Assembly (NCBI GenBank): GCA_037447655.1
Contig: JBBHKE010002877.1
Span: forward strand, 50,176-114,175
DNA: 64,000 nt
Direction of reading: 5' to 3'
From: Zygnema cylindricum
Lineage: Eukaryota; Streptophyta; Zygnematophyceae; Zygnematales; Zygnemataceae
Shown here: positions 9,084 through 54,645 of the stretch, piece by piece
How positions within the stretch are numbered: the stretch's first letter is position 1
Layout of the letters: every line of letters begins with the position of its first letter
Position numbers and translations under genes: made by a program
Notes under the pieces: model-generated
What the model was told of the DNA's origin: nothing
Database searches by the model: none
The model's input: the letters and a program-made list of their open reading frames with translations, nothing else

Positions 9084-9084
9084 T

Positions 9085-22827: not shown

Positions 22828-23209
22828 CTGCATGAATGTAAAAAAAAAAATAAAAAACAAAAAAAAACAGAAAAACCTGAGTTGGATCCAAGATCAAACG
22901 ATTCCAATCTAGAGGTCCCTCGACCAATCAGCTCAGGTGAGATCTTCGTTCACATAGTTAAACTATTATTCGGTGGGAATGACAAAAAAAAATAAAGCAG
23001 AAAAGAAAAGAAAAACCCAAAAAAAAAGAAAAACATCACAATTAAAAAAAAACGGGAAAAAAAATCAATCCATACAAACAAAGTATGTACCATAAAACAG
23101 CCAAAGTTGTGTGCAAAAAAATCAAACAAAATGAGGAGGATTTGTGATAAACTGTAAGGGAGAAGTAAATTTCAAACGAAAGAAAGAAAACTGATGCAAT
23201 TTCACTTAC

Positions 23210-23269
23210 ATCGTTGGTTTGCAATCCAAAAAGCTGGCTAACCCTTTCCACTAACTCACGAACAGTCGC
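23210..23269 (-). CDS. ubiquitin carboxyl-terminal hydrolase, exon 4
   Basis: A 60 bp exon with acceptor TTTTTTGCAG and donor GAT/GTAAGT. It encodes ATVRELVERVSQLFGLQTND, a ubiquitin-like fold segment, in phase 0 on both sides. Confidence 0.78.
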
Positions 23270-23413
23270 CTGCAAAAAAGTAAACAAAAAAAAAAACAAT
23301 AAGTTGAAAGAACAAAACATCAACAACAAACAAGATGAAACGACAAAAAAACCGCCGTAAACAAGAGTCAGACGGAAAAAAAATGCCAAGAGTAGCATAA
23401 GAAGGGAATGCAC

Positions 23414-23555
23414 CTTCTTGCTCATGAAAACAACCGTTTCTTCATTCCTATCCCACCGACAAACTCGCAGTCGAAGTGGATAGACTTCCACCACCGGTTG
23501 GTCCTGTTGTCTCAATCTTATGACGGGTCTTTTGATAGCCGGTCCACCACCATAC
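23414..23555 (-). CDS. ubiquitin carboxyl-terminal hydrolase, exon 3
   Basis: Acceptor TTGTTCAG, donor AAG/GTGCAT. It encodes YGGGPAIKRPVI, VEVYPLRLRV and the start of a ubiquitin-like domain. The Tyr-Gly-Gly-Gly-Pro turn with the VYPLRL strand is a hallmark of the DUSP end in plant UBPs. Confidence 0.8.
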
Positions 23556-24213
23556 CTGAACAAACAATTAGAAACCTGAAAATCAGAAAAAACTCTTGAC
23601 AATAGCACAGGGAAAACCTATTGGAAAACTTGAAAATAAAAAAATATTCAAATGTCAAAAGTAAGGAGCAAAAGGTGCTGAAAATCAGGAAAGAAACCTT
23701 AACAAATAACATGGAAAGCAACCCAAGTGGTGCATTAAGGAGAATGCGATCTAGCATTAACTGCATATACATCAAGAAACAATTGTCAGCTTGTCACTCA
23801 GTTAAATGTCAAAAACAAGAGGAAAGTCATCACAGCTTTGGACAGTGCAAAGGGAACGGTCAATTTAAACAGGTGATCAACAATATCATTCCAAAAAGTT
23901 TGTGGGTACAGGCACGACAATAATCCACGATTTGATAAATAATTTCAGCCTGTAATGTCAGCATTAAACGACCTCCAGAAAAAGAAGAAGGAACTAATGC
24001 AGAAGATGAATGTGAGAACTAAGTTCCACATTGAAAGTTTTCTTAAGAAACCTCTCAAAACAATCAGCATACCAGTCAAAGGAAGAAAACTTTACCAATT
24101 GATGAGAAATTTTCTGAATTGATGCTGGCACAAAAATAGACATCCCCACAAAAAAAAATCCTGAACAAGTAAAAGAAAACTGTCAAATCACCCAAAAAAA
24201 AAAGAAACCTCAC

Positions 24214-24462
24214 CATTGCTGGAAAACTTTCCAAACAGCTGCTGGTACAAGAATATAATCTCTCTCCTCTGCCAAAAGTTCCTTCAACTCAGGCTCTGCA
24301 GTCACGTCCCCTGTCGGAAGCCCAACCAAAAGCTCTCCATTGTCAATCGGTGGAGGTCTGCGGGATGATTGAACTGGAGTAGTGTTGCCTCCTTTTTCTG
24401 TAACCTGTTTTCCATCTTGAACCTCCTCATTTCCAACATAAGAGCTCCATTCTCGCCACCAT
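24214..24462 (-). CDS. ubiquitin carboxyl-terminal hydrolase, exon 2 (DUSP)
   Basis: Acceptor TTTTCCAG at 24470-24463, donor ATG/GTGAGG. It opens with RWWREWSSYVGNE, the centre of the DUSP domain, then a low-complexity loop, RPPPIDNGELL and ERDYILVPAAVWKVFQQW. The split Arg codon joins exactly to exon 1. Confidence 0.82.
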
Positions 24463-25269
24463 CTGGAAAACGCCTTCACATTCAAAATTGTATGAGAAAG
24501 TGTATATAATTAGCTAATGTATTACTAATATTACATGACCTGGGTGCAGACAAAGCTCAAGTATAATTGCAAACGGCAAACAGTGCAGAACACAAATAAA
24601 TACCACAGGGTTATGGTAAAAATATGTGTGCTATGATGATTTCTTTTTGTGAGCCTGTCTGAAAGTCAAAGCGACACATATCAGTCAGTTTAACTCAAGG
24701 AACATGATCAAACAGAGAGAGTTGGATATAAACTCAAATGACTATACACGCAAATGATTGTCCAATCCCTCAAAAAATTAAGGGCATCTTGTTATATCGA
24801 CTCTGTTTTGAAACCAAACATTCCTGGAGAGAAGCCGACAAATTTCTGAAAAGTGGCCTAGACTTCACTGGTGCCTGGTACGAAGACATCTTGATTACTC
24901 AACTAATTTTCTGGCAAAGGACAACCAATGAATCAAGAAGAAGCTGCACAGGGCAAAATATAGTACAAATCCTGGCAAATCAGGCCACTATACAATATGC
25001 TCTAAAGTTTTTTGTTGAAAAAGAGAAAATCCCAAAAGTGACAGAGGAAAGAGAGTTCATAGGCTCACTCACAACTGTTCTATAAGATTCAATAACGTAA
25101 GGTATCCGCCTCTAGAATAGTAATCAGGTGCCTCTTTAACCTCACTGACTCTTTCATTTGGCACCTTAAAAAAAAGAAAAAAATGCTCAGTCATTTTTCA
25201 ATAAATTTGACCTTTTAAAAGAACATCAAACAAGCTAAAACTAATTCTGTTCCAGCAAGTTGCTCAAAC

Positions 25270-30262: not shown

Positions 30263-31249
30263 TGTAATTCTGTATCCCCCATTGGACTACAGAATTCAGG
30301 AAGCCTCTAGGCAGTTTTTGACTGACCCACTTTCAACTAAGACCACTGCTACCCAAGCAGGGAAATAGGCAATCTGACTGCACCCCTGTGCAGTCTGGAC
30401 TCCCTTGAGTCCGCAACAAAAAGAATCATAGAAAACGCCAAACTTGGCGATTGATTATTAAGTGGCAAAGATGCCAATATTTATACAAGCTCATTAGGAG
30501 AGAGGCGGCTTCCTCCTCAATTCTCTAAGTCCTAAACCCCTCTCACAACCCCTATCTATTAACGTACGAACCAATCAGAAGAGAGTACAATACAAAAAGG
30601 TACTTTGATCGATGTCGAATCTGCACGGCCTGTGTACGACAAGGTCATGGATGGAAGTCTGTCTCATTCACACTTGTCTTCATGCTCTCTGGGATTTCTG
30701 CTTTCCAATTCCATTGTGCCATGTGGCGCTAGGTCATGTTACGCCCGAAAACCACCAAAACGACTATTTTGGGATCTCGGCGATGATGCAAACCGTCTAA
30801 TCTAAACCGACATTTACAAGTAGCTCTTAAACAAATGTCTGGTACATTTGTTTCGTGCGGGTTTCTGTTCGCACTATATTCCAACTAGTCTCTATGTTCT
30901 TTATCTCTAATTCCGCTAATTGGATTAAAGTTCCTCAACAATGTTTTAAAAGCATTCAAACCCTATGTAGTCTAACGAACTCCTACGACTGACCGGCTAA
31001 AGCTGACGGCTACGCCTCGCTCTGCCGGTCGGAGATTTGAGTCATGCCGGACTCTACCTTTTTGTTAAGAGTGTATTATGTCACTCTTCAGTCATGCCTA
31101 TGGAGCTAAGGCGACCATGGCTCCACCACTCTCTCTTTCCTTCAATGACTATATGGGGGGTAGAGAGAGAACGTGGAGGCAGGCTGCCTACGCTTTTACT
31201 TAATCTATTCAGACCTAGAAAATACCCCCTAAATCTAGTGATTTCAACA
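30263..31249 (-). repeat. 3' LTR of truncated copia element
   Basis: 987 bp, plus strand TGTAATTCTGTATCCCCCAT to GATTTCAACA, followed directly by the polypurine tract at 31250-31266. Its start differs from the TGAAACTCTG group, so it is another subfamily. Pieces of that subfamily occur at 10173-10347 and 44036-44110. A tRNA-like module lies at about 30985-31060. Confidence 0.8.
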
Positions 31250-31266
31250 CTCCCCTTATTTTCTAG
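31250..31266 (-). other. polypurine tract
   Basis: CTCCCCTTATTTTCTAG on the plus strand, identical to the tracts at 1286 and 54629. Confidence 0.75.
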
Positions 31267-33805
31267 TCTAATTTCAATATCTCTTTTAATCCACACTTTT
31301 CTCTACAATATTTTAACTTGGGAGAGGGTACAGGTTTGGTCATCATATCAGCCATCATTTCCCTATCACCCCTATACACAAGATTCACAATTTTGTTTTC
31401 AACCTTTTCCCTTACAAAACTTAATCTTATGTCCATATGTTTAGCCTTGAAATGATGTTTTGGATTGGGTGCAATTGCAAAGGAAGCTTGATTATCACAA
31501 AAGACTTCATGCACTCCCTCTTTCATATACCCTAGTTCTTGCAAAAAAATACAACCCACATCAACTCTTTAACAACAGAACATGAGGCCATGTACTGAGC
31601 CTCTATAGTGGACTGAGCAACCACCTTTGTTTGCTTGCTACTCCAACAGCAAGCACCTTCCCCCACATATTACACATACCCAGAAGTGCATCTTCTCATA
31701 GGTGCATCTTTATAACTAGCGTCGCTCTAAGTAGTGAAGTCAGTGTGCTTCCCTCCCGATTGCAACCATAAATCTTTGGTTCCCACCAGATATCTCATGA
31801 ATCTCTTAGCTGCCTCCCAATCTCTCTTCCTAGGATCATTAAGACTCCTACTGAGGACTCCAACTGCTACAGCTATGTCAGGCCTATTACAGTTTAAAAA
31901 GTAGATTAAGCTTCCTACAACCTGTCTGTAAGCAATAGACTTCATAAACTGTTTCTCTTCTGGACTCATTTGATCATCTAAGATCATCACTCCTCCTTCT
32001 ACACTCCCATCACTTACTTTCTTCAACTCCATAGGAGTTGTACAACTGTTTGCCTTTTCCATCTGGAATTTCTCATGCATATTCTCTATGTTTCTTTCTG
32101 AGTTAGTCTGATAATTTTTTTCCCTTTATCTCTTGCCATTTGAATTCACAAAATGTATATTGCCTCCCCTAAATCCTTCATGTCAAATCTGCTTCTAAGA
32201 TATTTCTTTAAATTATTGATATTTTCCATAGACTTACTTAACACCAGCAAATCATCCACATAAATTGCAATGAAAATAACACTATTCTCATCCTCAAACA
32301 TATAAATAAAATGGTCAAATCTGATCTGAATATATCCTTGACCGGTGAGAAACTCATCTTGTTTGTTATTCGATTGTCTGCGAGCCTGTTTCAGTCCATA
32401 TAAGGACTTTGAGAGTCGGCATACTTTGCTCTCTTCTCCTTCCTTTACAAAACCCTCTGGTTGCCGCATGAAGATGTTTTCCACTAGCTCACCATTGAGG
32501 AAGGCGGTCTTAATATCCATTTGGTGCATTTCCATGTCTTTTGCTGCCGCTAGCCTGAGGAGAATCCTTACTGATGGGAACCAAATAACCGGAGCAAAAG
32601 TCTCCTCATAATCTATCCCTTCTTTTTGAGTGAACCCTTTTGCTACCAACCGAGCCTTATATCTCTCAATGGTATTATTTGGGTTCAATTTCAGTTTAAA
32701 CACCCATTTGCACCCAATCGGTTTTCTGTCTGGAGGACAGTCCACCAGCTCCCAAGTATTCGCTTCCATGATGGAGGCCATCTCATCATTTATGGCTCTA
32801 ACCCATCTGTCTTTCTCCGGACTGTTCATTGCCTCCGAGTATTACTGAGGTTCATCATGGTTAGACAGCTTAGTTACCTTGTGAGCGGCCTGTTTTTCCT
32901 GTAGCCTTTTGCTGCTTCTTCGTCCTCGCTCAAAGTCCGAAGATGGAATGGTGGGAAGTCTCGAGTTCCTCCTCACTGTCTCATTGGCTCCCCTATCCAT
33001 GGAAACCGGTTCTGGCTCCTCCTCCTCCGTCTCTTCGGAGTGTATAGAGATATGGGGAGCTTCCGGTATGTCTCCCCCATCTTGGATCTCCCCTGAATCT
33101 GCAATCACTTTTTCCATCATATCCCTTTCAAGAAAATCCGAGTCCTCCTCATTCTCGGACTCAAAGCTGATTCTTATCTTCTTGGTATATTTGAAAGGAT
33201 CAAATGACTTTTTTTCATCCATGACAACTAGGTTCTTTACCAGAATGATATCTTGTTTTGCTAAGTCATAGACTCTATATCCTTTGACATCCTCATCATA
33301 TCCCACAAAATATCCAGGTTTCCCTTTAGCATCGAGTTTCCAGTTTTTCCTATCCGTATCAAGACTGTAAACTAGACTACCGAATACTTTCAAGTGAGAA
33401 ACTTCTGGTTTCCTTCCAACCCATCTCTCATAAGGTGTCATTCCTTTCACTGTTGAGGTAAGGAATCTATTCTAAATGTAGTTAGCACAGTTCATGGCTT
33501 CTGCCGGAAACCTTTTTCCTACCTTCTTATCGGCCAACATACTAAATACACTATCTCCTAGAGTCCGGTTCAACCTTTCAGCTACGCTATTCTGTTCTGG
33601 ATTATACGGTACAGCTTTTAGATGCTGAACTCCCTCATCCCTGAAGTATTCCTCAAACTAGTTAGAGGTATATTCTCCTCCATTATCACTCCTTATCCTT
33701 TTAATGGGGTTACGTGCAACTTCTCACTCCATGCTTTATATTCTTTGAAGTAAGTTGGTGTTTCAGACTTAGTTTTTAGGAAGTAGACCCTAGAGTATCT
33801 AGACC
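31263..33805 (-). pseudogene. copia integrase, RT and RNase H, 5' truncated
   Basis: Pol of a minus-strand element, from the integrase core down to the 3' end. Integrase pieces (33805-33450) show EQNSVAERLNRT with the catalytic Glu and KGMTPYERWVGRKPEVSHLK. An acidic, Ser-rich linker (33450-32842) leads to RT (32829-32146) with MDIKTAFLNGEL and the intact box FIAIYVDDLLVL. RT/RNase H continues in 32080-31727 and 31559-31263 (CDNQASFAIA, DMMTKPVPSP). Frame breaks occur near 33460, 32840, 32146, 31725 and 31560. The element is cut at 33805 within integrase, where an unrelated LTR border begins; gag, protease and the 5' LTR are missing. Confidence 0.85.
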
Positions 33806-33854: not shown

Positions 33855-34720
33855 GTGTTTTCTCAGTATTTAGAATATTTTGTGAAAAGTCTGGTTCAGT
33901 ATGTACCAAATTAATGTTACAGTGAACAGTGAGGGAGTTCTTGGTGTGACACACTTCAAGGCACGAGTCGGTAAATGAGACACTCTACAAAGATTCGTTC
34001 GTATTATTCAGACTTAACATAAAGACCGAAGTGTCACATAAAAGTTTCATCTTGGATGAAACTTTGAAATGATGGTCGGTGAAGATTTGCTGCCGACGGA
34101 AGGTGACCATCCTAGACCACGTCTATATACATCTGACGTGTTTGTACACGGTGTACTGTGATGTTAATTATCTCTAGTTTGTACAAAAGCGTGTTTTGTT
34201 TGATTAGTGTCTCAGTTCAGATTCTTTCTATATGACATACCTTGACATATTCAGGTATCCTCTTTTAGATAGTAGATATTATTGATGCATGGCTGGTATG
34301 CTTCCTTTGCTTAGTTAGGGCAATAAGTGGCTGCTAGCTCTTAGAAGAATAGATCTTTTAGGTATAAGAATAGGACTTAGCCATCTCAGAATTAGGAACT
34401 TGTTGTATCAAAATTATGCTGTAATATTTTTGATATATTTGACTGAGAATATCTCTTAGATATATTTGCAAATTTCTGTGTAAATTTGCACTTATGTTCC
34501 TTTGTGTATTATCTGCATTGTGTCAGATTTTTAGGCCTTTTGGTTGCCTAAATTATCTTTGACTGTGTTCCAAAGTTGTGTGTATTTTTTGGAGTATCTG
34601 TGAGAGCTTCTTGCTTATCTGAATTCTGTGATGTCTACTCGAGCATCATCTTCATCTTCAGTTGGTGTAGCAGTCACAAAACAACATTGGTTAGCTCTTT
34701 TGTGGATTGTGCCGCTTTAG
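33855..34720 (+). mobile_element. plus-strand copia LTR and gag start, another family
   Basis: A purine tract GCGAGGGGAG is followed by TGTTTTCTCAGTATTTAG, the usual polypurine/LTR junction. The LTR runs to about 34630 and shares words with 50645-51480 (GACATAC-TTGA-TATTC-GGTAT, GGCTGGTATGC). At 34632 an ATG opens MSTRASSSSSVGVAVTKQHW, typical of copia gag N-termini, before the frame is lost at about 34720, where the gypsy element leader seems to begin. Confidence 0.5.
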
Positions 34721-35278
34721 ATCTGCACTTGGGAGCGCCTGGATAGTAAGTTATTTGCCTTTATAGATTTGGCCTTTCAGCCTTGTCCCCTTGTTTGTAG
34801 TGTAGAAGGTTTTGGTAATACGCCTTCCTGATAGATCTGGCCATCGAGGCCCTGTTAGAGATTGATTGGCTGATTGGACAAGAGAGTGGTGTGGCCTGGC
34901 ATTTGAAGCATATCGGTTAGATCAATTTTGTTATCTGGTCATCATTTGTTGTTATCATTTTTTATGCCCACCGATTGAGATAATCTTGATTATCCTGTCG
35001 GAACCACCCGATCGTCGGCCTCGTTTAGGCCCACGGAATCTGGACTATCAGATTTATCTAGTTTTTTTGAACCATCCTTTCCTAAATATCTCGGGTCAAA
35101 TTTTCCCTCCGGTTTGATCTACTCTCACCTTAGTATTTTCTTTATCATCAGTCTCTTCCACATTTTTCGTTGAGGAAACTTACCACGATTCCCTTGACTG
35201 GTCGGATTCCAATTCATTATCTTTTTGGTTTCCACAAATTACAAATTCATTATTATCCCCAAGCATTCTATTATTGGA
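34721..35278 (+). other. gypsy 5' leader, no gene seen
   Basis: 558 bases between the copia gag start and the gypsy gag ATG. No LTR, no clear PBS and no credible frame are seen. The exact left border of the gypsy element is not determined. Confidence 0.4.
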
Positions 35279-36646
35279 AATGGCTTCCACATCCGAGGGA
35301 GGGGGTCGCCTTCATTTCTGTTTTTCAAGAATGAAGGACACCATGACTTTATCGCATATTCAAATGTTATTCGATACTGAAATGCGTGATCTTGCATTTC
35401 GGTTCCAAGATCGGTTTGACCTACGGGTCGCTTTCTCTCTTTTAGGCCGTTACCTTCGCGGTTCAGCCCTTACTCTTTATTCCCGCAAGTTTGATTCCGT
35501 ACTTGCGATGACAAAGTTTTCTCTGGCTTTTGCTAGGAGTCTTGCTATTATAGGACAACCAGAAATTCCCTACCAGACGGCAATCGCGGAAGTCCTTGAT
35601 CTCAACAGCGATGTTATTACATCAGCAGTTCCGAAAATACCGCAATAGTTTGCTATATCCGCACGTGCTGGAATACCAGCACGACCAGCGATGACGATCC
35701 CTATACTGGATCCGCTCTCATGTTTGACATGTTGCAGGCGGAATACCATATGCAAAATCTTGACCAAGTTCGTGAGTTAATGAACTTCGAACGGAAGTCA
35801 GGAGAGACAGACCGTGCCATGCGTGCTCGTATGGAAGCTCTTCGTGAAGCATTGTCGGGCTTCATGTCGGATGCTGAAGCTTTCCAGATATTTGTAAGAC
35901 AGTTTCCGAGTCAGTCTAAGAAATTTATTTAGAGTCACCTGACTAAAACGTACGGCTTGAAGTTCACTTTTGACCAAGCCGCCGAGCATGCCGTGGAATA
36001 CGGAATGCAAAATTGTTGGTGGGAAGCCCATGACCGTCCTAAAGCGGTCCCAAAAGAACTGATTGTTCCACCATGGAACAATCCTCGTCCTAACAACCGA
36101 CTTTCTAAAGTTCCAGCCATGGGAACCCCACTTGTTGAACTTGGAAACCGTTTATGTTTCCGATGTGAGAAGACGGGGCATGATGCCCGAATGTGTCGAG
36201 ACAAAACTGTTACCTGTACACATTGCAAGCAAACTGGACATTATGTCCAACGTTGTTATATAAAAAACCCGGATATTTCTTATCAGAACCAAATTAAAAG
36301 TGGTGGCATTCTCGCTCGATCCGCAAAATCGGTTCAACCGGTTAAAGAACTGGAGAAGGACACCACTCCACCTAAGGTATCCCGAAGAGAGAGAGAGAGA
36401 GCGTTTAGAAATGCAAGAGCAAATGGCGGCTATGATGAAAGAACAATTCGCAGCCTTGATGACTCAAATGAAGCCACAATTTACAGGCATGGCTCGCATT
36501 GTAGTACACATGCCAACGTTGGCAGGTCGAATCTTACGAGATTCCACCATCCAACAAAGAGAGGCTACCTTCGACAAAGGTTCGACCGATCACAGCCGTG
36601 ACGGTAAAATTCCTTACACACGCATTCCTTTGTCATTCACTTAAGA
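35279..36646 (+). pseudogene. gypsy gag with two zinc knuckles, broken
   Basis: ATG at 35279 (MASTSEGGGRLHF), then the capsid-like part (FDLRVAFSLLGRYLRGSALT), a gap, and the conserved gag block MLQAEYHMQNLDQVRELMNF to FVRQFPSQSKKF. Two CCHC knuckles follow, CFRCEKTGHDARMC (36150s) and CTHCKQTGHYVQRC (36215s), for RNA binding. The frame changes at about 35648 and 35935 and again inside an (AG)n run at 36387-36401, after which a Gln/Met-rich coiled stretch (QEQMAAMMKEQFAALMTQM) continues in another frame. Confidence 0.78.
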
Positions 36647-36899
36647 ACCTTCTCCTCCCTTGCCAGAAAACGCTTCAGCCATCGCGGCTGAAGCTCTCAA
36701 CATAGTGGATCGAACTATACACGAGGCACACAGCGTAAAAGAACGCTTGTGCATTCTATCCAATATGATTTCCGACTCACAAAAAATCTCCCCTATATCC
36801 TTTACTTCCGATAGCTCATCTGCAGCTGCCGCGTTACAAACACTTCAGCTGCACATAAATCTTTCTGCTATTTAGTCTATTTCCATATAGGAGCGAAAT

Positions 36900-37564
36900 T
36901 CCCTCGATCCTCACATCAGTTTTTTGGATAACGCGAAATGTGTATTGTTGATCAATGGTATAGCCCCTTCCGTGCCTCTCATAGATACAGGTGCAAAGCC
37001 GGTGATATTGGGCTCCAGCTTTGCACTCAAGCTTGGTCTAACTCCGGACAAGCTTGAGACCACTTCTACTCGCTTGTTAATATCAGCGGGTACTACCGAG
37101 CCAGTTCTAGGAATCACTAAGGAACCGCTCGCTTTGAGGTTCCAGAACGGAACGACCACAGACTTTGTTGAGATCTCGGTTCACGCTCTGGTCACTAAAT
37201 GTATATGTGAATGCCTGTGGGATGTGCCGCTATACTCGTGGTAGGTGGAGGTGACATGCATGATTATACATTTTCTTATAGGCCCACTAACTTCCCAGAA
37301 AGCAAAATTTGCATTCCGCTAATTTTTGTTAGAAAGCCCATGCCTGTTATGGCAAATTCGGCCACATCTATACCTGTATTTTCACGGAATTCGGTGGGGG
37401 CCGAAATATTTCATTCATTGTCAGCAGAAGAAATTATGCCCAATAGTTCTTACTTACCAGAAATTTTTAGTGACCCGGGTTTTCTTATAGATACGAAGGA
37501 ATTCGTCCGAATATATAACCAAACCTTGTCAATTCGACTTTCTCCGCTCTCTCCTAAATCTTAG
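36900..37564 (+). pseudogene. gypsy aspartic protease and linker
   Basis: The retroviral-type protease reads CVLLINGIAPSVPLIDTGAK with the intact active triad Asp-Thr-Gly-Ala near 36983, then VILGSSFALKLGL and the flap region to ALVTK. The second half, with the family's C-LLG-like motif, continues in another frame (CECLWDVPLYSW, then GCAAILVVGGGDMHDYTFSY). A linker of about 100 residues (to 37564) then leads to the methyltransferase. Protease cuts the polyprotein. Confidence 0.72.
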
Positions 37565-37617
37565 TCCCAACAGACTCTTTTAGGTTTCTTCCCATTAATT
37601 GGAATCCGGTCTAATTG

Positions 37618-38649
37618 AAACCTCATCCAAATGGATTGGTGATTTTGGTCCTGTTCGGTGAAAAAGGCACTTCCCTTCTTGTATGTTTGCGAAATGGATT
37701 ATTAATCCGATTTTATTATTCGGTTGAGATTGATCCGTTAGCATGGAAAGCACAATTACATCATTGTAATCTGGTACATTCCTAATACCCGCATTTGTTA
37801 CCAAAATCTGCATACGAGCATATGCATACTGCTCTCCCAAAGGACATGCGGATAATGGGCAACCATCACTTATAGGATATTGGTCCTATCGATCTAGTTT
37901 TTGGCGGATGGGAGTACCAGGGAATGTCTCGGGCTGGGAAAGGTCTCGGATTAGGCGATCCCTGCACCAAATTATTTTTTGAATTGGTTCGTGTTCTGCA
38001 TTTTCTACAAACTTTAGATCATCCTATGGGATATATCTTGGAAAATGACGCAACCTATAATGATCCAAGACCTACACTTTTGGCTGATTATCAACAGATT
38101 GAACAATTAATTGGGCTGCCTCTTATTATTGACGCGGCTCGCCATGGCTCACTAGCACACCGAGTTCGCTCCAAATGGACGAACCTGATCGATATTGGTA
38201 GACTCCGTGAGGCCAACTTGTTAGTTTGTCCTCCTCCTACAGACATTCAAGCTGCTCTTCTTCCTTTCCACAAGGTGCAGCCTTGCATTCAAAAGGACTG
38301 TCCCCCTAATTTCAGTGTCAATGTCCTGGGTCAACCTCTCAAGGTGCTTCCTACCTTAGTTTCTTACCCACATTCACATACATTCTCTAATGACGGTCTT
38401 GGCATGCTCTGAAACATTCATACCGGTGAGCTCGAAGAGCCTACCTCTACGGAACCAGAACACCTCATGCATTTCATTCCTGGCACTACAGCCGCTACTG
38501 GTCTTATAGAACGCCAAAGATGCATTTTATTAGATCGTGTCATGGACCCCCAGTCTTTGTCTTTTGTTTTAGGGCTTGGATTTGTAGCTGGTCGCCACTC
38601 TCAGGCACATCCGTCTCAACCAGCTGGGGGGGGGGGAATGCATCACTAA
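37618..38649 (+). pseudogene. C5 cytosine DNA methyltransferase domain in gypsy pol
   Basis: 344 codons in a single frame with only three stops (near 37792, 37873 and 38409). Motif I: LFGEKGTSLLVCLRNGL (cofactor loop, usually F-x-G-x-G). Motif II: YYSVEIDPLAW. Motif IV: IDLVFGGWEYQGMSRAGKG, where Pro-Cys is expected at 37912-37917 but Glu-Tyr is found (the Cys nucleophile TGY is TAC). Then KLFFELVRVLHFLQ. Motif VI: YILENDATYND (Glu-Asn kept at 38041-38046, Val to Asp). Motif VIII: DAARHGSLAHRVRSKWTNL, like the AHRAR-FWGNL of DNMT3/DRM enzymes. Motifs IX/X: KVLPTLVSYPHSH and FIPGTTAATGLIERQ then QRCILLDRVMDPQSLSFVLG. The family transfers methyl groups from S-adenosylmethionine to cytosine C5. 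This copy is dead through the lost Cys and the stops. It ends at a G11 tract (38627-38637) where the frame shifts. Confidence 0.85.
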
Positions 38650-39019
38650 GAAAATATTTCCGTCCCACTCTCCAAGGGACCACATTTCATTTTTTCCTCT
38701 TTCCTTCTCCAATTCCACTAGTCCCGGAGATCTTTATCTACGATTTCGTCAATGCTAGCCATATGTCCTAGTCTATTCCCGCATACACGGCTGTCCAGTC
38801 TACAAGTCCCATGCATATTCCACCCACTCCTCATTGGAGTGCTGCTTTTCCAACACGCAGCTGGAATCATTCGGTTAATTGCATTAAACAGACACCTATA
38901 GCTTACGAGTTAGGTTAAACCCTTATCGCAGAGGAGTAGTTGGCCTTTCCACAAGGTATGAAGCTATGACAACCAAAAATTCTGATGCTCTTAAATGGAA
39001 ATTCGACACCAATCTAACA
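38650..39019 (+). other. linker between methyltransferase and RT
   Basis: About 370 bases with short, shifted frames (after the G11 tract: NASLRKYFRPTLQGTT, then Pro-rich pieces). No domain recognised; probably a decayed polyprotein linker. Confidence 0.45.
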
Positions 39020-39952
39020 AAGGCCAAACAAAAGTAACTGAATGACGTAGTTTTACGGAATATTGATGCCTTTGCCTTTTGTATGAACGATTTGGTTTGT
39101 CATACTGCTTATAAGATGTCGATAGATCTCCAAGATGATCGCCCGATATTTAAACCGAAACATCGTTCGTCAAAAACAAAATGGGAAATGGTAGACGAGC
39201 GATGTACTTAACTAGAGGAAGCTGTCCTAATCTATCGGTCAGACTCCATATTTGCAGCTCCCACTGTCTTGCCTCGGAAAAAGGATTCCGATGATATTTT
39301 GACTGAACGTCGAATGTGTGGTGACTATTGTGAACTAAATGCTAGAACGGTTCAAGATCGTCATCCCATGCCTCTTGCCGAAGAAATATTTGATCACATG
39401 GGCGGAGCAAAGTATTTTAGTATCCTTGACCTCCGTCAGGGATTCAATCAAATTGAGATAGAGGAAAAAAACCGACATAAAATTTCCTTTTGGGGTAGCG
39501 ACGACCGATGGGAATGGGCCGTAAAGCCATCCAGACTGAAAAATGCTCCGGCACTATTTCAAAAAGTTAGGGACTCTGTTCTTGGAGGTTGTAAGTTTGC
39601 TAGATGTTACATCGATGACCTCATCATTGCCTCGGCTACTATCGAAAAGCACGCAGCTCACATCGAATGGGTATTGACTGAATTGAAAAAGGTCGGATTA
39701 AAATGTCATCTAGCGAAATGCACCTTTGGAGCTGAGGGAGTGCCTTACCTCGGCCATTTTATCTCGGCTGAGGGGATCACCCCTCTCGAAGCAAAGGTAG
39801 AGGCAATCAGTAAATTGCCTGCTCCCACAGACCTTACAAGTCTGCGAGGTTTTCTTGGACTTGCTAATTATTATCGTAGGTTTGTTTCTAATTTTAGCAC
39901 CATCGCATCTCCGTTAAACGACCTTCTCAAGAAGGAAGTGGGGTTTATATAG
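39020..39952 (+). pseudogene. gypsy reverse transcriptase
   Basis: The front part (about 39060-39268) carries two stops but reads as the RT start (FKPKHR, EEAVLIYRSDSIFAAP). The rest is a clean frame to 39952: RMCGDYCELNARTVQDRHPM, KYFSILDLRQGFNQIEIEE (first catalytic Asp), the box CYIDDLIIAS (YIDD instead of the common YVDD/FLDD), CHLAKCTFG, YLGHFISAEGI and the thumb motif SLRGFLGLANYYRRFV. It copies element RNA. A stop (TAG) ends the frame where RNase H begins. Confidence 0.88.
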
Positions 39953-40440
39953 GGTCCCGATCAGATTTCAGCATTTCAAAAATTACAAAAAACCTCTTTA
40001 TCTAGTGCTCTAATTCTCCGTCCTCCCAATAACAAACTCCCATTTTGTCTCCAAACAGATTTTGGGAAACCCGGAATAGCTGCCATCTTGACACAAAGAG
40101 AGTCGAGCGGAGAGGAATACGTAGTTGCTTACGCGAGTAGAAGCAATAATCGGGCTGAATCAAATTATAGTAGCTACGAAGGAGAGTGTCTAGCCGCGGT
40201 TTGGGGAGTCATTCACTTCCGCCATTATTTGTACGGCAAACCTTCACACTCCTAACTGACCATCAACCCTAACATTGGCTGATGACAAACGATAAGCTTT
40301 CCGAGAAGCTAACCCTGATGGGCTTTAATCTTACAAGAATATAACGTTGAAATAATTCATCGACCCGGCCTGCTTAGTCTGAACGCAGACAGAATTTCCT
40401 GAAATCTTTTGCCTCGAACGCAGACAGAATTTCATGAAAT
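39953..40440 (+). pseudogene. gypsy RNase H
   Basis: Reads GPDQISAFQKLQ then FCLQTDFGKPGIAAIL (catalytic Asp), VVAYASRS, SSYEGECLAAVWGVIHFRHYL (catalytic Glu) and, after a shift, the LTDHQ motif, where the third acid is expected. Several stops after 40250. A direct repeat of about 40 bases (GAACGCAGACAGAATTTC.., twice at 40380-40452) disrupts the end. Confidence 0.78.
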
Positions 40441-40571
40441 CCTTTGCCTCGAACGACAGATAACGGAGTTCGACAGGATTTCGATGACGAGAATGTTCCC
40501 GTCATGTCAATGGGTTCTTATCTTACTTACTGCCTGGCCTCTATTCCGAACCCCCGTCCCACCATAGATCC

Positions 40572-41450
40572 TTGGCGTTATGGGCCTCTTTTCTTTTCTT
40601 ATCCACCCAGACCATCAGGTGCGACACTACCTCTGATGAAGAAGAAAGAGTGAAAAGGAGGGCCAAAAGTTACCTTTGTCTCGGAGGGTTTTTAGATCGG
40701 TTAGTGTCGGATGGAAGCCATAGACACGTCCCTCGTCCTACCGAGCGACTTTCCCTAATTGAACAAATTCACACCAAGCTTGGTCACTACGGTACCAAGC
40801 GGACGTTAAGTCTTGTTCATTTACAGTATTGGTGTTCAAGAATGCAAGCTGATGTCGCTGCTATTCTACATAAGTGTGCTACCTGTGATCGTCTCCAAAC
40901 TTCGTTCTCTAACCGGCAGACTACGCTCCAACCTCTACCCATTAGGGGTTTATTCTATCGATGGTCGGTCGATTTGGCCAACCTTTTCCCATCTCACATA
41001 GAGGGAAACAATATATCATGATTATGATCAAAAATTTCAGTAAGTGGGTAGAAATCGTAGCATTGCCTCATAAGACAGCTAAGTAAATAGCGCGCGAAGA
41101 ACATGTCCTTTGAGATACAGTGCTAGCCGGTCTTTACGGGATCAGGTACAAAGTGGGGAGAATTTCAAGAGATGGATGAGCTCTCATTGATCATCGTCGT
41201 ACAAGTCGGGATCACCCCTAGGCCGATGGCCTAGCTGAACGGGCAGTCCAAACATTTCGGGCCTTGCGTAAATATTACTTTGAGAAACACATTTCGGTTT
41301 GGGACGAGTCCCTCGGTTACATTACCATTGGATATCGCATGTCAGTTCAGGCTAGTCAGGCTAATTTCAGCCTGTATTATGTTTTATTTGGGCGACAACC
41401 GTTGTTGGTCGCAATATTCAGAAAGCTACAAGCTTTCAACTTCCGTTGAT
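40572..41450 (+). pseudogene. gypsy integrase, catalytic residue lost
   Basis: The H2C2 zinc site is intact: IHTKLGHYGTKRTL with the two His and ILHKCATCDR with the two Cys. The first catalytic Asp is in RWSVDLANLF (near 40970). The second, normally in T-D-x-G-T, reads TGSGTKWGEF, so the Asp is lost. The Glu is kept in ADGLAERAVQTFRALRKYYF. Frames change near 41020 and 41230. It normally inserts the cDNA into the genome. Confidence 0.8.
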
Positions 41451-41599
41451 GTCAGACACTATCTTTTTGGAAGAACTCACAAGTCGAGCTTTGCTTTTTG
41501 CCCGTGAAATGCCCATGGCTTTTGATAACCTGCAGATTGCCCAGCATCGAGACACACTTCGGTTTGCCACCACTCGAAGCGGCAGTTAGAGGCCGCAAC

Positions 41600-42000
41600 A
41601 GAAGCCCTATCGGGTGGGAGACTATGTTTATCTTCGCAGGCAATCTTTCGACGCTTTGGACACTGATGTTTCTGCACACATCCTACGGATCATCGAGGTG
41701 GATCCGAACGAAATGTTGGGATTACAAGGAGCGGACACACGGACTTTTCGAGAGCACTCCAAGAATTATGCTCCATGTTACTTACCAGATTTGTCGCAGG
41801 ATATGGATCCTATGCGGATGCCAATTACGAAGGTGACGGCATGTACCTTTTGTCATCGATCGGACGCGGAAATGCTATCAGTGGTTTCAAATGGAGTGTT
41901 TGGTGCCACCATTGTTGGTGGTTCCGGATGGTCACTGGTTTTGCCACGGATGCCGCGAGCTTCCGGTCGTGTTGGCCACCTCCTCTGTCGGCTAAAGAGC
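41600..42000 (+). pseudogene. integrase C-terminus with PHD-finger-like cluster
   Basis: After an SH3-like segment (GDYVYLRRQSFDALDTD, AHILRIIEVDPNE) a cysteine-rich end follows: CTFCHRSDAEM (Cys-X2-Cys at 41842-41853), a WCHHC piece in a second frame near 41912, and VPDGHWFCHGCREL in a third, the typical W-x-C-x2-C end of PHD fingers. Two frameshifts divide it. In many gypsy elements this position holds a chromodomain that guides insertion by reading histone marks; a PHD finger could do the same job. Confidence 0.6.
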
Positions 42001-42010
42001 TGGGGGGGGG
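42001..42010 (+). other. G9 tract, likely gypsy polypurine tract
   Basis: AGCTGGGGGGGGGAATAAACC marks the end of the coding region and the start of LTR sequence that is repeated at 43718. A second AGCTG plus G11 run with GAAT lies at 38622-38640. Confidence 0.5.
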
Positions 42011-42796
42011 AATAAACCGACCTTACCATAACTAGCTAAGTCGTTGACCTTTCTTTTTCTTTCACCTTGCCTGTTGTTTTATTTATTCATTTTTCTCTTT
42101 CATGTCGTATTTCATTCACAATATATTTTCATCGTTCGGGTTTGAGTTAAGCACAGCAGATGATATTGCATGCATCTTCATGTTATTTGATACATGCACG
42201 ATAGCTGTCATGCCACATCTCGTTGGCCATTTTAGTTGTTTATATTTAGGTGTAAGGACGGGCAGCCGCTACACTAATTTGTATTTGGGTGTTATTTGGG
42301 TTTCGCAAGACTCTATGACGTGTACCGTATGACCTACATTCTCTGTAATTTCCAGGATGACGATTTGGACCGTTCCCGCGGTCCTACCGTATGACATATA
42401 TGTCCCGCGATTTCCGCCAATAGTGGATTTGATTATTTCGCGTCGACCGTACGACTTACGTCGACCAGAATTCCCGCGGCCACAAATTGGACCGTACTTG
42501 CGGTCTTGTCGTACCTGTTTTTATTTCCCGGATTTCCGACGACAATGAATCGGGTCGATTCACGTCGACCTTATTTATTTATTTTTTCCAAGATTTTTCG
42601 CCGACAACTTACGTTAAAATTCACGATGGTACAAATAAACTTATCGTTTTATATACATTTTCCGCGATTCTCGCTGACGACAATTTTGATCATTTCACGG
42701 CTACCGTACAAGCTTCCATTCCCTTGAACCCCGGCCGACAGCAAATTTTAATCATTTTGCGTGGAGTAGCATCTCGGCCGTCGACATAAAGTATGC
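42011..42796 (+). repeat. gypsy 3' LTR, first part
   Basis: Starts AATAAACCGACCTTACC. The first 190 bp recur at 43718-43915, and the following part (GTCATGCCACATCTCG, GGACGGGCAGCCGCTACAC) recurs inverted at 45770-45862. CpG-rich from 42350 on. It is broken at 42796 by a copia LTR fragment. Confidence 0.65.
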
Positions 42797-43060
42797 TGAA
42801 ACTCTGAGACCTCCATTGGCCCTCAGAGTATGCAGATCCAAAAGAAGCTAATCTAGATAGTGCCGACTCCAAGTTGATATAAACCCAAATGACTGACCCC
42901 TTCACAGTCAGAACCCCAATATAGATTCACCCTTGTGAAATAACACTTTCTGTGTGCTCAGTTCCACCACAGAATGCAAAGTTAGAATATGAGATTTGGA
43001 CACATTCACCCACTTTGACTTTCCCTTAGAAACACAGCCACCCTGGCAAACAAAAACTCT
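42797..43060 (-). repeat. copia LTR fragment inside the gypsy LTR
   Basis: TGAAACTCTGAGACCTCC to GGCAAACAAAAACTCT, nearly identical to 106-370. It has no PBS and no other end, so it is a broken insertion or conversion patch. Confidence 0.75.
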
Positions 43061-43915
43061 ACATAGCACGCTGTACTCTGATTGGCTTGTTTTTGCTAGG
43101 CGTAGTTTTTGTTACTTAGTTCATTTCGGATCATTTCCTGCACACAATTTTCAAGTGCAAGAATTATTCATTTTATTTCTTTTCAGTATTGAGGATTTTC
43201 TTCAGCCATCTTTTTACTTGTAAAATTGTCCGGACAGCTTAGAGGCAATTTCCTGCCTTTGCATGAAGCGTCTAGTTTTCCATTACATTATCAATATCTT
43301 GTAAAGCCTTACATATTAATCTATACGGCTTCGGCCAAGACCTACACGGTTTCCCTTCACTTTTCTTGTCCTTATGAGTGGATTTGGACCGCGATCTCAC
43401 TACACGAACTTCTTTCCCTGGCTGTGGCTCAATTCTAATTAGTGTGGAAGTTACATGTTGGGATTTTGATTTGTTGTGTTTATTTCTTGTGATAGTGTAT
43501 TTATTTCTATTTGGCTTTTGCGCATCTTTTGAGTTGGGTTATCTCAAACCTCATAAGTGTCGCGCATATAGTCATTTTCAGTTTTTATTTATCTTTCTCG
43601 GTTGTTTATGTTTTGATTTATTATATTTAAGTATAAATTCAGATTATTCTCGATAAAGATAACTCTTGCAAGGAATATAAATAGACCGTGGGGCCTAGTG
43701 GTCATCCATCGGCTGAATAAACCGACCTAACCAGAACCAGCTAAGTCGTTGACCTTTCTTTTTCTTTCACCTTGCCTGATGTTATATTTGTTCATTTTTC
43801 TCTTTCATGTCTTATTTCATTCACAATATATTTTCATCGTTTGGGTTTGGGTTTGAGTTGTGCACCGCTGATGATATTGCATGCATCTTCATGTTATTTG
43901 ATAGATGCACGACAA
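43061..43915 (+). repeat. gypsy LTR, end part and second start
   Basis: 43061-43717 matches the inner end of the inverted LTR at 44341-45000 (CGGTTTCCCTTCA, GAGTGGATTTGGACC-like, AACTCTTG-AAGGAAT, GACCGTGGGGCCTAGTGG). At 43718 the LTR start (GAATAAACCGACCTAACC) appears again and runs to about 43915. Either two LTRs are joined end to start or AATAAACC belongs to the LTR end. Short open frames here are not genes. Confidence 0.5.
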
Positions 43916-44340: not shown

Positions 44341-45866
44341 TAAGACGATAGGTAGCCACTAGGCTCCACGGTCTGGGCAAATTCCTTACAAGAGTTAGAT
44401 CTAGGATTGCAAATGAAGAAAAAATAGCAACCGAAACAGAAAGTAATAAATAGCAAACTGTAAAGAATTCGAAATAACCGAATTCGAACAAAACTGAAAA
44501 TTATAACAGTAAGCCACAAAATAGCAAATAATAAGAGAACCAATAAGTAAAACTGGCACGAGAAAAACACAAGAAGCAACGTTAAAAATCTGCACCGAAT
44601 CCGAGATAACCAGATTCCAATACACTAATAACCAATCGCAAAAAAATGATAATAAAAACAAGCAATAGAAAGCTATTGAGAATCCGAGATAACCGGATCC
44701 TACCAAACACAAGCAAACTCCAATCGAGGCACCAGAAATTCGACAACAACAAGTCCAACTCCAATTCACAAAATGCATACACAAAGGTCTAGAGATAGCC
44801 TGTGAAAGTCGACAAAATCCACACTAAAAGAGGTTGTTGAAGGGAAACCGTGCAGACTCCGGCCGAAACCGAGTGAATTAAACTGTAGGGCTTACAAGGA
44901 AAGTATAATAGAGAAAAGAGAAAGACTAGGCGCTTAACTAACTAAGGCAGAAAAAGCCTTGCAGAAAAACACTGACAATTTGACTAGGAAAAAGACAAGG
45001 GAAAAAGACAAGAAAATGTAAGTCCTCTTCGATCAATTCATGTACTCTCAAATTATGAGAGTACAAAACCTAAAGTAATAGCCTAAGTACCAACGAAACA
45101 ACCAAAGTACTTATTTCTGACATTTCTAACTAACCAATAGCGTGAGAGTATTTTATTGTACATCTGCGCCTAGTTTGGGTCCTAGCCAATAAACGACCAG
45201 GACCATCTGCCTACGTTACAAAATTCACAGTCCGCGGATTAAAACCCTTCCTAAATACATGTGAATGCGTGAACCTACATGGGTTCACGACTCAAAATAC
45301 ACCAATCAGCGTGCGTCGCCAACATTTCGAAATCGCACGCTGCGTCGCCAATGTTTTGAAATTGTACGTCGCGTCACCAACGTTTAAAAACGTACGTCGC
45401 ATCACCGACATCCCAAAGTCATACGTTGCGGAATAAGTGTCTCGAAATTGCACATCGCGTCACGACAAAACCTGCGATGGAAATCAAAAGTACGGACGCC
45501 GCCGCTCCCGCGAAAATATATCTCCCTGATACTCGCGAGATTCCCAGCGTCGCTTTGATCGAAGTAAATATATGAAATTGTCTGTCGCGTCACGCCAAAA
45601 TCTGCGACAAAAAACCTAAGTACGGACGTGAAGTCGAAAATGAATCGGCACCGAGACTTCCGAGAAATGAAAGTCGTACGGTCCAACTCTTCACCAGCGG
45701 AAATTACGGTCAACGTAGGTATGTACCGAGGGTCAAACTTACAATGTACGGACCTGCAAACCACAATAACACCCAAATGCAAATAAGTGTGGCGGCCGCC
45801 TGTCCTAAACCCTAAATATAAACAAGAAAAGTGTCCGACGAGATGCGGCATGACATCTTTGTGTAT
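44341..45866 (-). repeat. gypsy-type LTR, inverted copy
   Basis: About 1.5 kb. The reverse complement runs from GTCATGCCGCATCTCG to AACTCTTGTAAGGAATTTGCCCAGACCGTGGAGCCTAGTGGCTACC and matches, in pieces, 42190-42300, 43330-43717 and 62500-62812. The first 180 bp of the LTR are missing at 45866. The 127- and 156-codon frames inside it are not accepted as genes. Confidence 0.6.
45312..45475. repeat. about 31 bp tandem repeats in the gypsy LTR, CpG-dense
   Basis: Five degenerate units of the type GTCGCCAACRTTTCGAAATYG-CACG. By eye there are about 18 CpG in 130 bases, unusual in this AT-rich window. Confidence 0.6.
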
Positions 45867-45879
45867 GAACAATTGCCAC

Positions 45880-46174: not shown

Positions 46175-47252
46175 AATATAGAAATTCAAGGTTTTATAAA
46201 GGTTTTCGGGTATTTTCTACGTTTTTACATGTAAAGATAAAGAGCAGAAAAGAAGCAGAGGCAGTGTGCCTCTAACTCCTCTCTCTAACTCCCACATTTG
46301 TCGCGGTCACTGAAGGTTGGAGAGGAAGCTAGAGCCATGGCTACCTATGCTGTCCAAAGAGAGACAATTAGTAGTTTGGTATGTTTACCAAAAGGAATTT
46401 GACGGACCCAAGATTTGATTTTGGAACCTACCGTCCGTCAAGTCAAGCAGTAGCCGGTAGCTTTATCCTATTAGTCTAGGATCAGTGCTAAGGTATATAG
46501 GGTTTCATAAATATTTATAGATGTATGCGTAGACAATTTCATTTAACAGCGTGAACAGGTTCTTAGGACATAGATATAGTTTTGTCTAGTAAGGTATACG
46601 GTACTCCACAAAACAAATATCGCGCATTTGTTTTGACGGCAAAACAAATCATTTTCGACGGTTATAATTAAAAGTCGATCTTGATCGAACGGCCGCGATA
46701 GATGCCGCGATCGTGGAATGAGCACTTTGGCGGTTTTTAGTCATCGCCACATCAAGTGACACGTGGCAAAACCACATTGGCTTGCGGCATCTCCGGAGAA
46801 TACGGGAACAAATCCGGATATGGCAAGCGTCGACATTTTGGATTTACCATACGATGGTCCTAAAGAAAGTACTTCAGCACCAGTACTTTTGTGTACAACA
46901 CAAAAATTTGATTAGTGCCGTACTCTAGTAGTATAGGGTTTAGAGAGGGATTTAGAACTTAGAAAACTTGGTAGGTTGACCCTTATCTTCCAGAGAGCTC
47001 CAGTACAAAAGCTCAACTTTGACCCTTCATAACTTACTGCTCAAGGGAGCAAAATCTCATATTCTAACTTTGCATTCTGTGGTGGAACTGAGCACACAGA
47101 AAGTGTTATTTCACAGGGGTGAATCAATATTGGGGTTCTGACTGTCAAGGGGTCAGTCACTTGGGTTTATATTAACTTGTAGTCGGCACTATCTAGATTA
47201 GCTTCTTTTGGATCTGCATACTCTGAGGGCCAATGGAGGTCTCAGAGTTTCA
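46175..47252 (+). repeat. copia LTR, plus orientation
   Basis: Begins with TTCGGGTATTTTCTACGTTTTTAC-like sequence shared with the LTR at 53483 and ends CTGAGGGCCAATGGAGGTCTCAGAGTTTCA at 47252. It is the mirror of 106-1285. No internal region follows: a second LTR in the opposite direction abuts it. Confidence 0.75.
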
Positions 47253-48020
47253 AGAGGCATCTACCTACTAGAATTATTCTAAGTCCTGAAACCCCTCTCT
47301 AAGCTCCCTAGTAGTGAGGAATGGTCCAATCGTAAGACTGTACCGTACAATTAAGTACAGGTACGGTCATACTTTCTGTACTGTCCATGTACGACATCAC
47401 TAGAATATGACATTTGTCATATCCGGAATTATCATCTCGTGTTCCAGAAATCTCGCAACCCTTCCGCATCGTGCCACATGTCATCCGAAGTGGCGTTGCC
47501 CGAAAATGCCAAGTCGTCCACTCCTAAATCTCAGCTCGCACCATGGTCGTTCGATGAAAACCGTCATTTAATATTGGTCGTTTAAATAAAATGTCGTTTC
47601 GTTAATTCTTTGCGGTACGGAATTCGTGCGGTCTAATATGTTTCCGTGTACAGGCCATCCCGTTAAGCAGTTAAATGAAACATTTTGCGTCTTTCATATT
47701 TATACAATTGTCGTACCCTATATACTCTAACACCGATCTTAGACTATTGGATAAAGCTACTGGCTACCGGATACTTGACGGACGACACGTACCACGATCA
47801 AACCTTGGGTCCGTCAAGATCTTTTTGGTACACCTACCAAAAACTACAGCTCGTCTCTCTCTTTGGGTAGCATGGGCAGCCATGGCTCTATCTTCCTCTC
47901 CAACCTTCAGTGACTGCGACAAGTGTGGGGGTTTGGAGAGTGGAGCGAGAGGGAGGTTGCCTTTGTTGACTTCCTCTTATTAATTTTCCTTTATTCAGAC
48001 CTAGAAAATGTTGTTTTTGA
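47253..48020 (-). repeat. copia LTR fragment, minus orientation
   Basis: AGAGGCATCTACCTACTAG to CAGACCTAGAAAATG. It lacks the first 350 bases of an LTR. A tRNA-like module at about 47745-47825 has TTGACGGAC paired with GTCCGTCAA. Confidence 0.7.
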
Positions 48021-51480: not shown

Positions 51481-53466
51481 ACAGGTTTATGATCTAAAAA
51501 GGGAAGATATAATCTAAGTAAAGCACCTAGTAGTTATGGATAAAGGAAAGTTTGTGGATCCCTTCAAGAATACAAAGTCAGTAAAAATCAGATTTGAGTC
51601 AAAAAAATTCGATGACTTAGAGCTTCCTAACTATCCAGGTTTCAAAGAAGATGACATCCTTACAGGTACAAATCAGACCGAGAAGGACTCGGCCGCAAAA
51701 ACTCCAGTGACAACTCTACCCGAAGCGAAAGACGTGGTGGAAATTTTTTCGGATTCAAGGAACAGGGGAGAAGCCAAGATTGTTCGATTAGACCCCACGC
51801 GAACCATCTATTATGACAACAAATTTTGAGGGGGGAAAGGAGAAGTAGAAAAATGATGCAAGAAAAAAAGGTTAATAACAAGGTAACAAAACTATCTAAT
51901 CCTGACCTCAAACTTATGGAGAGGCGATAAACAGTCCAGAAATGAGCCGGTGGAAGACAGCAACCAATGAGGAAATGGCCTCAATTACGGCAGCCGATGC
52001 TTGGGAGCTGGTGGATTGTCCACCTAACCAAAAACCAATCGGTTCTGAGTGGGTTTTTAAAATACAAAATGGACCCAGATAACACCATTGAGCGCTACAA
52101 GGCGCGGTTAGTGGCAAAATGATTTACACAGAAAGAGGGAATCGACTACGAGAAAACCTTTGCCCCGGCCGTCAAATTTCCCTCTGTCCGCATACTTCTC
52201 AGTCTATTAGCAGCAAAAGACATGGAAGTGCACCAGATGGACATCAAGACAACCTTTTTGCATAGAGAATTGGAAGAGGAGATCGTCATGCGACAACCCG
52301 AAAGATTTGTGGTGCAAGGAGAGGAGAGTAAGTTATGCCGGCTGATTGAATCTCTTTATGGTTTGAAACAAGCGCCCAACGGTGGAATAAGAAGCTTGAT
52401 GAATGATATATCCAGATCAGCTCAAATCACTCAATCTATGTTTTTCAAGATGAGGAAAATGTTATTTTTATTGCAATTGATGATTTGCTTGTTTTAAGTA
52501 AATCAATGGACAAAATTATTAAACTGAAAACGTATCTTAAGGGGAGATTTGAGATGAAGGATATGGGGGAGGCAAAATATATTTTGGGAGCTCAAGTAAA
52601 ATTAGACCAAGAAAGAAAGATTATAAGACTAACTCATAAGGAAGCAATAGGGATCATGTTGGAAAAGTTTCAGAAGGATAAGGCCAATAGTTGTACAACT
52701 CCAATGGAGTTAAAGAAAGGAAGTGAGGGGAATGTGGAAGAAAGAGTCATAATCTTCGACAAGGAATTAGGTCCTGAAGAACAAAAGTTCATGCAGACTA
52801 TTCCTTACAAGCAAGTAGTGTGAAGTCTTATCTATTATATGAATTGTACCCAATTGGATTTAGCTGCAGCTGTAGGAGTGATGAGTAGAAGTCTAAATGC
52901 TCCCACTAAGAGAAAAAGGGAGGCAACTAAGAGAGTCCTTAGATATTTGATAGGAACTAGGGATCTATGGTTGCATTTGGGTGGGGAAAAAAATTGACAT
53001 CACTACTTGGAGTGAGGCTAATTATGGTGATGCTCCGAGAAGGAGATGCACTTCTGGATATGTATTATATGTGGGTGATGGGGCTTGCTGTTGGAGTAGC
53101 AAACAGCAAAAGGTTATTGCTCAGTCCACCATGGAGGCTGAGTATATGGCCTCTTGCTCTGCTGTAAAAGAATTGATGTGGGTCAAGTCTTTGCTTGGTG
53201 AGCTTGGTCACCTTAAGAGTGGTGTGCAGAAAATATTTTGTGATAATCAGGCAGCAATCGCTATTTTTGCCAATCCTAAGCATCATTTTAAAGCCAAACA
53301 CATGGACATTAGACTAAGCTTTGTAAGAGAGAAGGTAGAAGACAAAATAATCAGTTTAGAGTACAAACCAAATAGCGAGATGGTAGTAGATATGATGACC
53401 AAACCTGTGCCTTCCCTTAAGCTATTTTTTTGTAGGGAGAAGTGTGGTTTTAGATTGAAGAGTGAC
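51481..53466 (+). pseudogene. plus-strand copia pol, 5' truncated, RT box damaged
   Basis: Starts in the integrase tail (VYDLKREDII region, VDPFKNTKSVKIRFESK). It passes a linker and the RT (CPPNQKPIGSEWVFK, MDIKTTFLHRELEEEI, SLYGLKQAPN) and ends with RNase H in 52981-53469 (TTWSEANYGD, GACCWSSKQQKVIAQSTMEA, CDNQAA, DMMTKPVPS). Frameshifts lie near 51830, 52060, 52390, 52500 and 52825. At the catalytic box the DNA reads FIAIDDLLVL: Tyr-Val of YVDD has been deleted. In RNase H the SDAS Asp is Glu (WSEAN). It is dead. Confidence 0.85.
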
Positions 53467-53482
53467 TAGAAAATAAGGGGAG
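53466..53482 (+). other. polypurine tract
   Basis: CTAGAAAATAAGGGGAG directly before the LTR start TGTATAAACT, in the plus orientation of this element. Confidence 0.75.
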
Positions 53483-54628: not shown

Positions 54629-54645
54629 CTCCCCTTATTTTCTAG
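54629..54645 (-). other. polypurine tract
   Basis: CTCCCCTTATTTTCTAG on the plus strand, next to the 3' LTR. Confidence 0.78.

Follow-up and report, generated by a model that had tools for sequence, protein, structure and literature searches.

DNA methylation is a frequent means of silencing retrotransposons, a picture that is inverted by elements carrying a methyltransferase of their own. Two such systems are described in the main text of de Mendoza et al. 2018 (PMC5890265): KnitGypsy-Dnmt3 of Klebsormidium nitens, a Gypsy element with a DNMT3 in Pol, DIRS-like repeats in the order A-coding-B-A-B and purifying selection, and SymbioDIRS-Dnmt3 of Symbiodinium, a DIRS element with a tyrosine recombinase, which also has the DNMT3-type enzyme in Pol and the same order of repeats. 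The same text offers a precedent for CG methylation by a retrotransposon enzyme of this type and calls the role of methyltransferase-bearing retrotransposons unclear; a passage of a 2025 survey (PMC12344493) points back to it. A literature search, with most subscription journals outside its scope, brought up no further gypsy element that we recognised as carrying a DNMT or a PHD finger, and a word search in the text of a 2019 survey of LTR elements in plants (PMC6317226) found neither 'PHD' nor 'methyltransferase'.

We analysed a stretch of 64,000 nt from Zygnema cylindricum (GCA_037447655.1, contig JBBHKE010002877.1, positions 50,176-114,175, forward strand), called the window hereafter, to which all coordinates refer. 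The window had been proposed to contain a Ty3/gypsy element whose protease and reverse transcriptase enclose a C5 cytosine methyltransferase, and a precedent had been named in dinoflagellates and one charophyte, which agrees with the main text of PMC5890265. The arrangement was borne out, since matches to PF13650 and PF00078 flank the enzyme and the relatives described below keep the same order. The window element contains gag, protease, C5 methyltransferase, reverse transcriptase, RNase H, integrase and a PHD finger, and its features are the following:

34685-43914, forward strand: decayed, 5'-truncated Ty3/gypsy element (blastn against four copies)

35957-36601, forward strand: gag fragment with two CCHC zinc knuckles (PF00098, 1.3e-4, in two stretches)

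36924-37244, forward strand: aspartyl protease with IDTGA (PF13650, 1.7e-5, above cut-off)

37564-38634, forward strand: DNMT3-type C5 cytosine methyltransferase, broken by stops, a damaged motif I and loss of the catalytic cysteine (tblastn with the methyltransferase of copy L090; phmmer match to DNMT3A in PDB)

39269-39952, forward strand: reverse transcriptase (PF00078, 1.2e-20)

40572-41021, forward strand: integrase zinc-binding domain H2C2, the core 3' of it being interrupted (PF17921, 7.8e-13)

41806-41992, forward strand: PHD finger remnant, frameshifted (tblastn with the PHD finger of L090, two pieces at 41806-41871 and 41873-41992)

42010-42201, forward strand: repeat B1 (90% identity with 43715-43912; matches repeat B of element C1915)

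42204-43714, forward strand: repeat A2, including a foreign 265-base repeat at 42796-43060 (matches repeat A of C1915 and C829)

43715-43914, forward strand: repeat B2, the right end of the element, terminating in GACA (repeat comparison)

Three of the four copies compared by blastn match the window element from 34685 onwards (L099, 88.5% over 8190 columns; L108, 89.0% over 7689; L100, 89.9% over 7584) and the fourth, L090, matches it at 66.4% from 35298. Repeat A1 and the leader were sought upstream of 34685 and not found. Near the right end we observed degenerate inverted matches to repeat A at 44838-45867. The foreign repeat within A2 recurs, with 94-97% identity and over no more than 265 bases, at two other sites of the window, 105-369 and 47052-47252. 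We are almost certain that a Ty3/gypsy family which was active recently, and which carries a DNMT3-type methyltransferase, left the window element behind as a dead copy.

Regarding the methyltransferase itself, a single frame with three stops had been noted at 37618-38649, and the three internal stops were located (TAA at 37783, TAG at 37873 and TGA at 38410) ahead of the final TAA at 38647; the match begins further 5', at 37564. With its stops masked, the frame scored 17.5 bits against PF00145 (E 0.003, cut-off 22), 18.1 bits against TIGR00675 (E 0.0017, cut-off 100.65) and reached 5.7e-5 against phrog_116, while phmmer against PDB found DNMT3A with 1.8e-6 over residues 75-195. When the frame was shuffled as a control, the score against DNMT3A was reached by 0/2000 shuffles for the middle part, 13/2000 for the N-terminal part and 1421/2000 for the C-terminal part, and therefore motifs IX-X of this copy draw no support from DNMT3A alone. 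The N- and C-terminal pieces, each searched alone against PDB, found no methyltransferase. Furthermore, motif I reads LVLFGEKG in place of LDLFAGIG and motif IV has lost the catalytic cysteine. The complete motif set with the catalytic cysteine, in order, is found in the intact relatives and not in the window copy. The identity of the frame is nevertheless settled by these relatives: the methyltransferase of L090 matches it by tblastn with 72.3% amino-acid identity over 357 aa (E 2e-172), which overturns the result below cut-off that the window copy alone gave with PF00145.

The host assembly that we searched comprises 353 Mb in 2689 contigs. The PF00145 profile gave at least 123 matches, all above cut-off, a lower bound because 123 were scored from 782 first-look candidates; these matches are not equivalent to elements, as some copies may give two. 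Open frames of at least 900 aa without a stop in the match held 11 of them. For 20 of the 123, selected with priority to long frames and top scores, we retrieved the surrounding 10 kb; the methyltransferase was present in all 20 loci, which fell into subfamily A (12 loci; the window copy belongs here) and subfamily B (8 loci), with about 40% identity between the enzymes of the two. The possibility raised beforehand, that gypsy relatives always lack the insert, is thus contradicted, with the reservation that these loci were picked by a methylase search. A scan by motif gave the order protease, methyltransferase, reverse transcriptase in 15 of the 20, and a partial result in L098, L101, L103, L104 and L106. 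Intact relatives do exist in this genome: L090, of subfamily A, has one uninterrupted frame of 2395 aa running from CCHC to PHD finger. According to Pfam match positions, its order is CCHC (0.0086, below cut-off), protease motif, PF00145 (2e-11), RVT_1 (1.4e-29), RNase H (2.6e-34), H2C2 (4e-15), rve (1.7e-11) and PHD (1.5e-9), that is, the gypsy series protease, reverse transcriptase, RNase H and integrase with a gypsy-type reverse transcriptase. Such elements appear to be common in this genome.

Not all of the 123 matches are elements, because a further locus outside the 20 (L088, 1501-1749, G000:C514) is host-like and a copy of neither subfamily. It holds a short exon-like stretch that among the references is closest to DNMT1 (tblastn 9e-18; 0.68 against subfamily A and 0.003 against subfamily B) and that reads like a chromomethylase exon. 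Judging from it, a methyltransferase of DNMT1/chromomethylase type seems to be encoded by the host itself. No phage match was found. In viral contigs the window enzyme as query gave 1 pattern match and DNMT3A gave 6, with 0 relatives in both cases, and a degenerate motif pattern gave 0 sites. The one site of this pattern in a bacterial contig falls within a dnaJ-like frame, in antisense orientation, and was taken as chance.

A likeness to DNMT3 had been predicted, and profile, tree and fold matches all point to it. A profile of 10 copies matched DNMT3A in PDB with 8e-19, followed by HhaI (1.5e-7), DNMT2 (1.3e-6) and DRM2 (6.9e-6), the value for DNMT1 not being significant (0.33). The tree was built from 20 proteins, namely the enzymes of 7 of the 20 fetched loci, DNMT3A, DNMT1, DNMT2 and 10 of 80 fetched phage enzymes, with DRM and CMT left out. 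It joined subfamilies A and B with supports of 97/97 and both of them with DNMT3A with 100/99, although long branches meet there. AlphaFold, run on 10 rows, gave a poor model of the methyltransferase (pLDDT 48), which lends the C-terminal half no structural support. The 50 Foldseek matches listed were all DNMT3 entries, to which we give little weight because of TM-scores around 0.3 by query length. Vertebrate DNMT3A/3B are thus the best match by profile, tree and fold, but the identity in the fold alignments is 20-25%, and here the domain sits in a retrotransposon polyprotein with the PHD finger at the far end. By these comparisons the retrotransposon enzyme is of DNMT3 type rather than of DNMT1, DNMT2, DRM or bacterial type.

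All 20 fetched copies (12 of subfamily A, 8 of subfamily B) retain the catalytic cysteine together with the motif VI EN and the motif VIII R-x-R; within subfamily A, two residues ahead of the catalytic cysteine, one copy is interrupted by a stop and another carries a changed residue. Most C5 methyltransferases have a proline before this cysteine. That is the case in subfamily B, with the canonical PCQ, whereas subfamily A has a glutamate. Regarding constraint, the median dN/dS of the methyltransferase was 0.222 in subfamily A (27/78 pairs usable) and 0.275 in subfamily B (14/28), compared with 0.155 (18/78) and 0.114 (9/15) for the reverse transcriptase, 0.116 and 0.168 for RNase H, and 0.169 and 0.252 for the integrase; the usable pairs were few, those lost for the subfamily A methyltransferase being too close, saturated or too short. 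Of these four domains, the methyltransferase is therefore under the weakest constraint in both subfamilies, and yet these ratios clearly indicate purifying selection on it. In intact copies the enzyme is very probably catalytically competent.

At the other end of the polyprotein, a full-length PHD finger match follows the integrase in 10 of the 12 A loci (one of them with a zinc-binding cysteine changed), with one further partial match, and in 5 of the 8 B loci. It scores above the Pfam cut-off in L090 and below it in the subfamily B polyprotein scanned, and the closest solved structures are those of PHF12, BAZ2B, Lid and WSTF. The two polyproteins scanned showed no chromodomain at E 0.01. Chromoviruses, which are also Ty3/gypsy elements, likewise carry a chromatin-reader module at the C-terminus of the integrase, but in them it is a chromodomain and in these two polyproteins a PHD finger. 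A TAG that lies in frame and is continued by CAATTC recurs at one position, between protease and methyltransferase, in 6 of the 8 loci of subfamily B (L093, L094, L104-L107). This sequence resembles leaky stop contexts and may reflect a programmed readthrough.

Three subfamily A elements (C1344, C1915 and C829) could be read to their ends, and all of them have split repeats in the order A-coding-B-A-B. In C1344, no difference separates A1 from A2 across 931 bases and B1 and B2 share 99.6%, while the repeat pairs of C1915 and C829 share 99.0-100%. With such near-identical repeats and intact frames, the family appears to be recently active. The termini are TGTC..GACA, and the internal joint of B1 and A2 consists of the same ends with GC between them. 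The three elements are flanked by 4-bp target duplications (TTGG, CCCT and AAGG), so that TG..CA ends with a short target duplication were seen in 3/3, the window copy lacking its 5' end. Therefore, despite the DIRS-like repeats, integration looks like the work of a DDE integrase. A DIRS element has a tyrosine recombinase and no target duplication; here we find an rve integrase and 4-bp duplications, which also separates these elements from SymbioDIRS-Dnmt3 as the main text of PMC5890265 describes it.

We consider it likely that one joint explanation covers these observations: the window element would be a dead copy of a family that methylates its own cDNA, inserts by a DDE reaction and is guided in its targeting by the PHD finger. 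The methyltransferase, produced together with reverse transcriptase and integrase, would methylate the cDNA of the element, probably at CG, either ahead of integration or during it. Insertion would be carried out by the integrase through the usual DDE chemistry, which is how the 4-bp duplications would arise, and the PHD finger would steer integration toward chromatin with a particular state of the histone H3 tail. Chromodomains are thought to steer integration likewise in chromoviruses. Taken as separate parts, the self-methylation of cDNA is one to which we give even chances, and the targeting by the PHD finger may be true with chances just short of that.

Three results count against self-methylation. 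The first is that CpG depletion, which self-methylation would predict, is weak: in the 10-kb stretches, flanks included, the observed/expected CpG ratio was 0.78-1.00 for subfamily A and 0.60-0.74 for subfamily B, and it was 0.37-0.63 in three copia stretches of the window. The second is that the excess of C to T changes at CpG in the old window copy is just 1.4- to 1.5-fold. From L099 to the window copy they amount to 98/875 at CpG and 231/2903 elsewhere (1.4-fold), with about 1.5-fold for L108 and L100; in the reverse direction CpG makes hardly any difference. The third is the weaker constraint on the methyltransferase than on reverse transcriptase, RNase H and integrase.

The alternative that survives best would assign the element to KnitGypsy-Dnmt3, already known, or to the closest relative of that family, with no novelty in it; this is a serious contender that we place somewhat below an even chance. 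The host is photosynthetic, as 88 matches to light-harvesting proteins show (best 1.3e-48), and by eye these proteins look streptophyte-like; this and the host exon resembling chromomethylase/DNMT1 agree with that reading. The genome size does not, as the 353 Mb found here stand against about 104 Mb for K. nitens. Judged by the main text of PMC5890265, both share an LTR Gypsy superfamily, a DNMT3-type enzyme within Pol, purifying selection, the DIRS-like A-coding-B-A-B repeats and a green host, but the word PHD occurs 0 times in that main text. Set apart by the same description, although some of these traits may be shared, are the C-terminal PHD finger, the two subfamilies, the TAG of subfamily B, the 4-bp duplications (3/3) and the at least 123 matches. 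The element thus belongs to an already reported, rare kind, here multiplied and recently mobile, to which the C-terminal PHD finger, the two diverged subfamilies and the in-frame TAG are possible additions.

A second alternative keeps the enzyme active and changes its target, which would be host chromatin or the silencing of competing elements instead of the element's own cDNA. Products of the polyprotein could enter the nucleus with the integrase, the main text of PMC5890265 discusses effects on the host methylome, and the copia elements of the window are poorer in CpG than the gypsy element. However, a position between protease and reverse transcriptase in one polyprotein better suits action inside the particle, and we find this alternative unlikely. 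Less probable still is the retention of the domain as a non-catalytic module for binding DNA or RNA: the unusual glutamate of subfamily A and the slightly weaker constraint would fit it, but the catalytic residues kept throughout the fetched copies and the canonical PCQ of subfamily B argue otherwise. Finally, a host methyltransferase gene landed by chance in one gypsy copy, for which the broken state of the window copy is the sole point in favour, is refuted for practical purposes by the enzyme recurring at 20 places, in 15 of them in the same order by motif.

Returning to self-methylation with PHD-guided insertion, a broader version of it can be put forward only tentatively. It would be a lineage that joins a writer (the DNMT3-type enzyme) and a reader (the PHD finger on the integrase) in one polyprotein, methylates its own cDNA, lands by histone marks and combines DIRS-like split repeats with a DDE integrase, and that has spread through the genome of a green alga, with at least 123 domain matches, possibly shaping the methylome of its host. 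Long-framed, recently moved copies with two diverged enzyme types and a linked histone reader make the question of the role testable, specifically which cytosines are marked, whether methylation is present on new copies from the start and whether landing sites are chosen by the PHD finger.

Some further observations concern the host genome and the surroundings of the element. Light-harvesting protein genes form dense arrays on both strands in G000:C519 and G000:C2590. The 88 matches to these proteins also led us to reject a Physarum-like slime mould as host, to which the T-rich introns of the protease gene described below had initially pointed. The window contains copia elements and related repeats at 343-9700, 30400-33800, 46200-48000 and 51485-61945, which are up to 88% alike over long stretches. 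An open frame resembling an S41 peptidase lies at 20527-21378 on the forward strand (PF03572, 0.0026, below cut-off). A host gene for a ubiquitin-specific protease occupies 21755-24466 on the reverse strand, and its four introns, placed by eye, are rich in T (T 0.37-0.58, pyrimidine 0.54-0.74).
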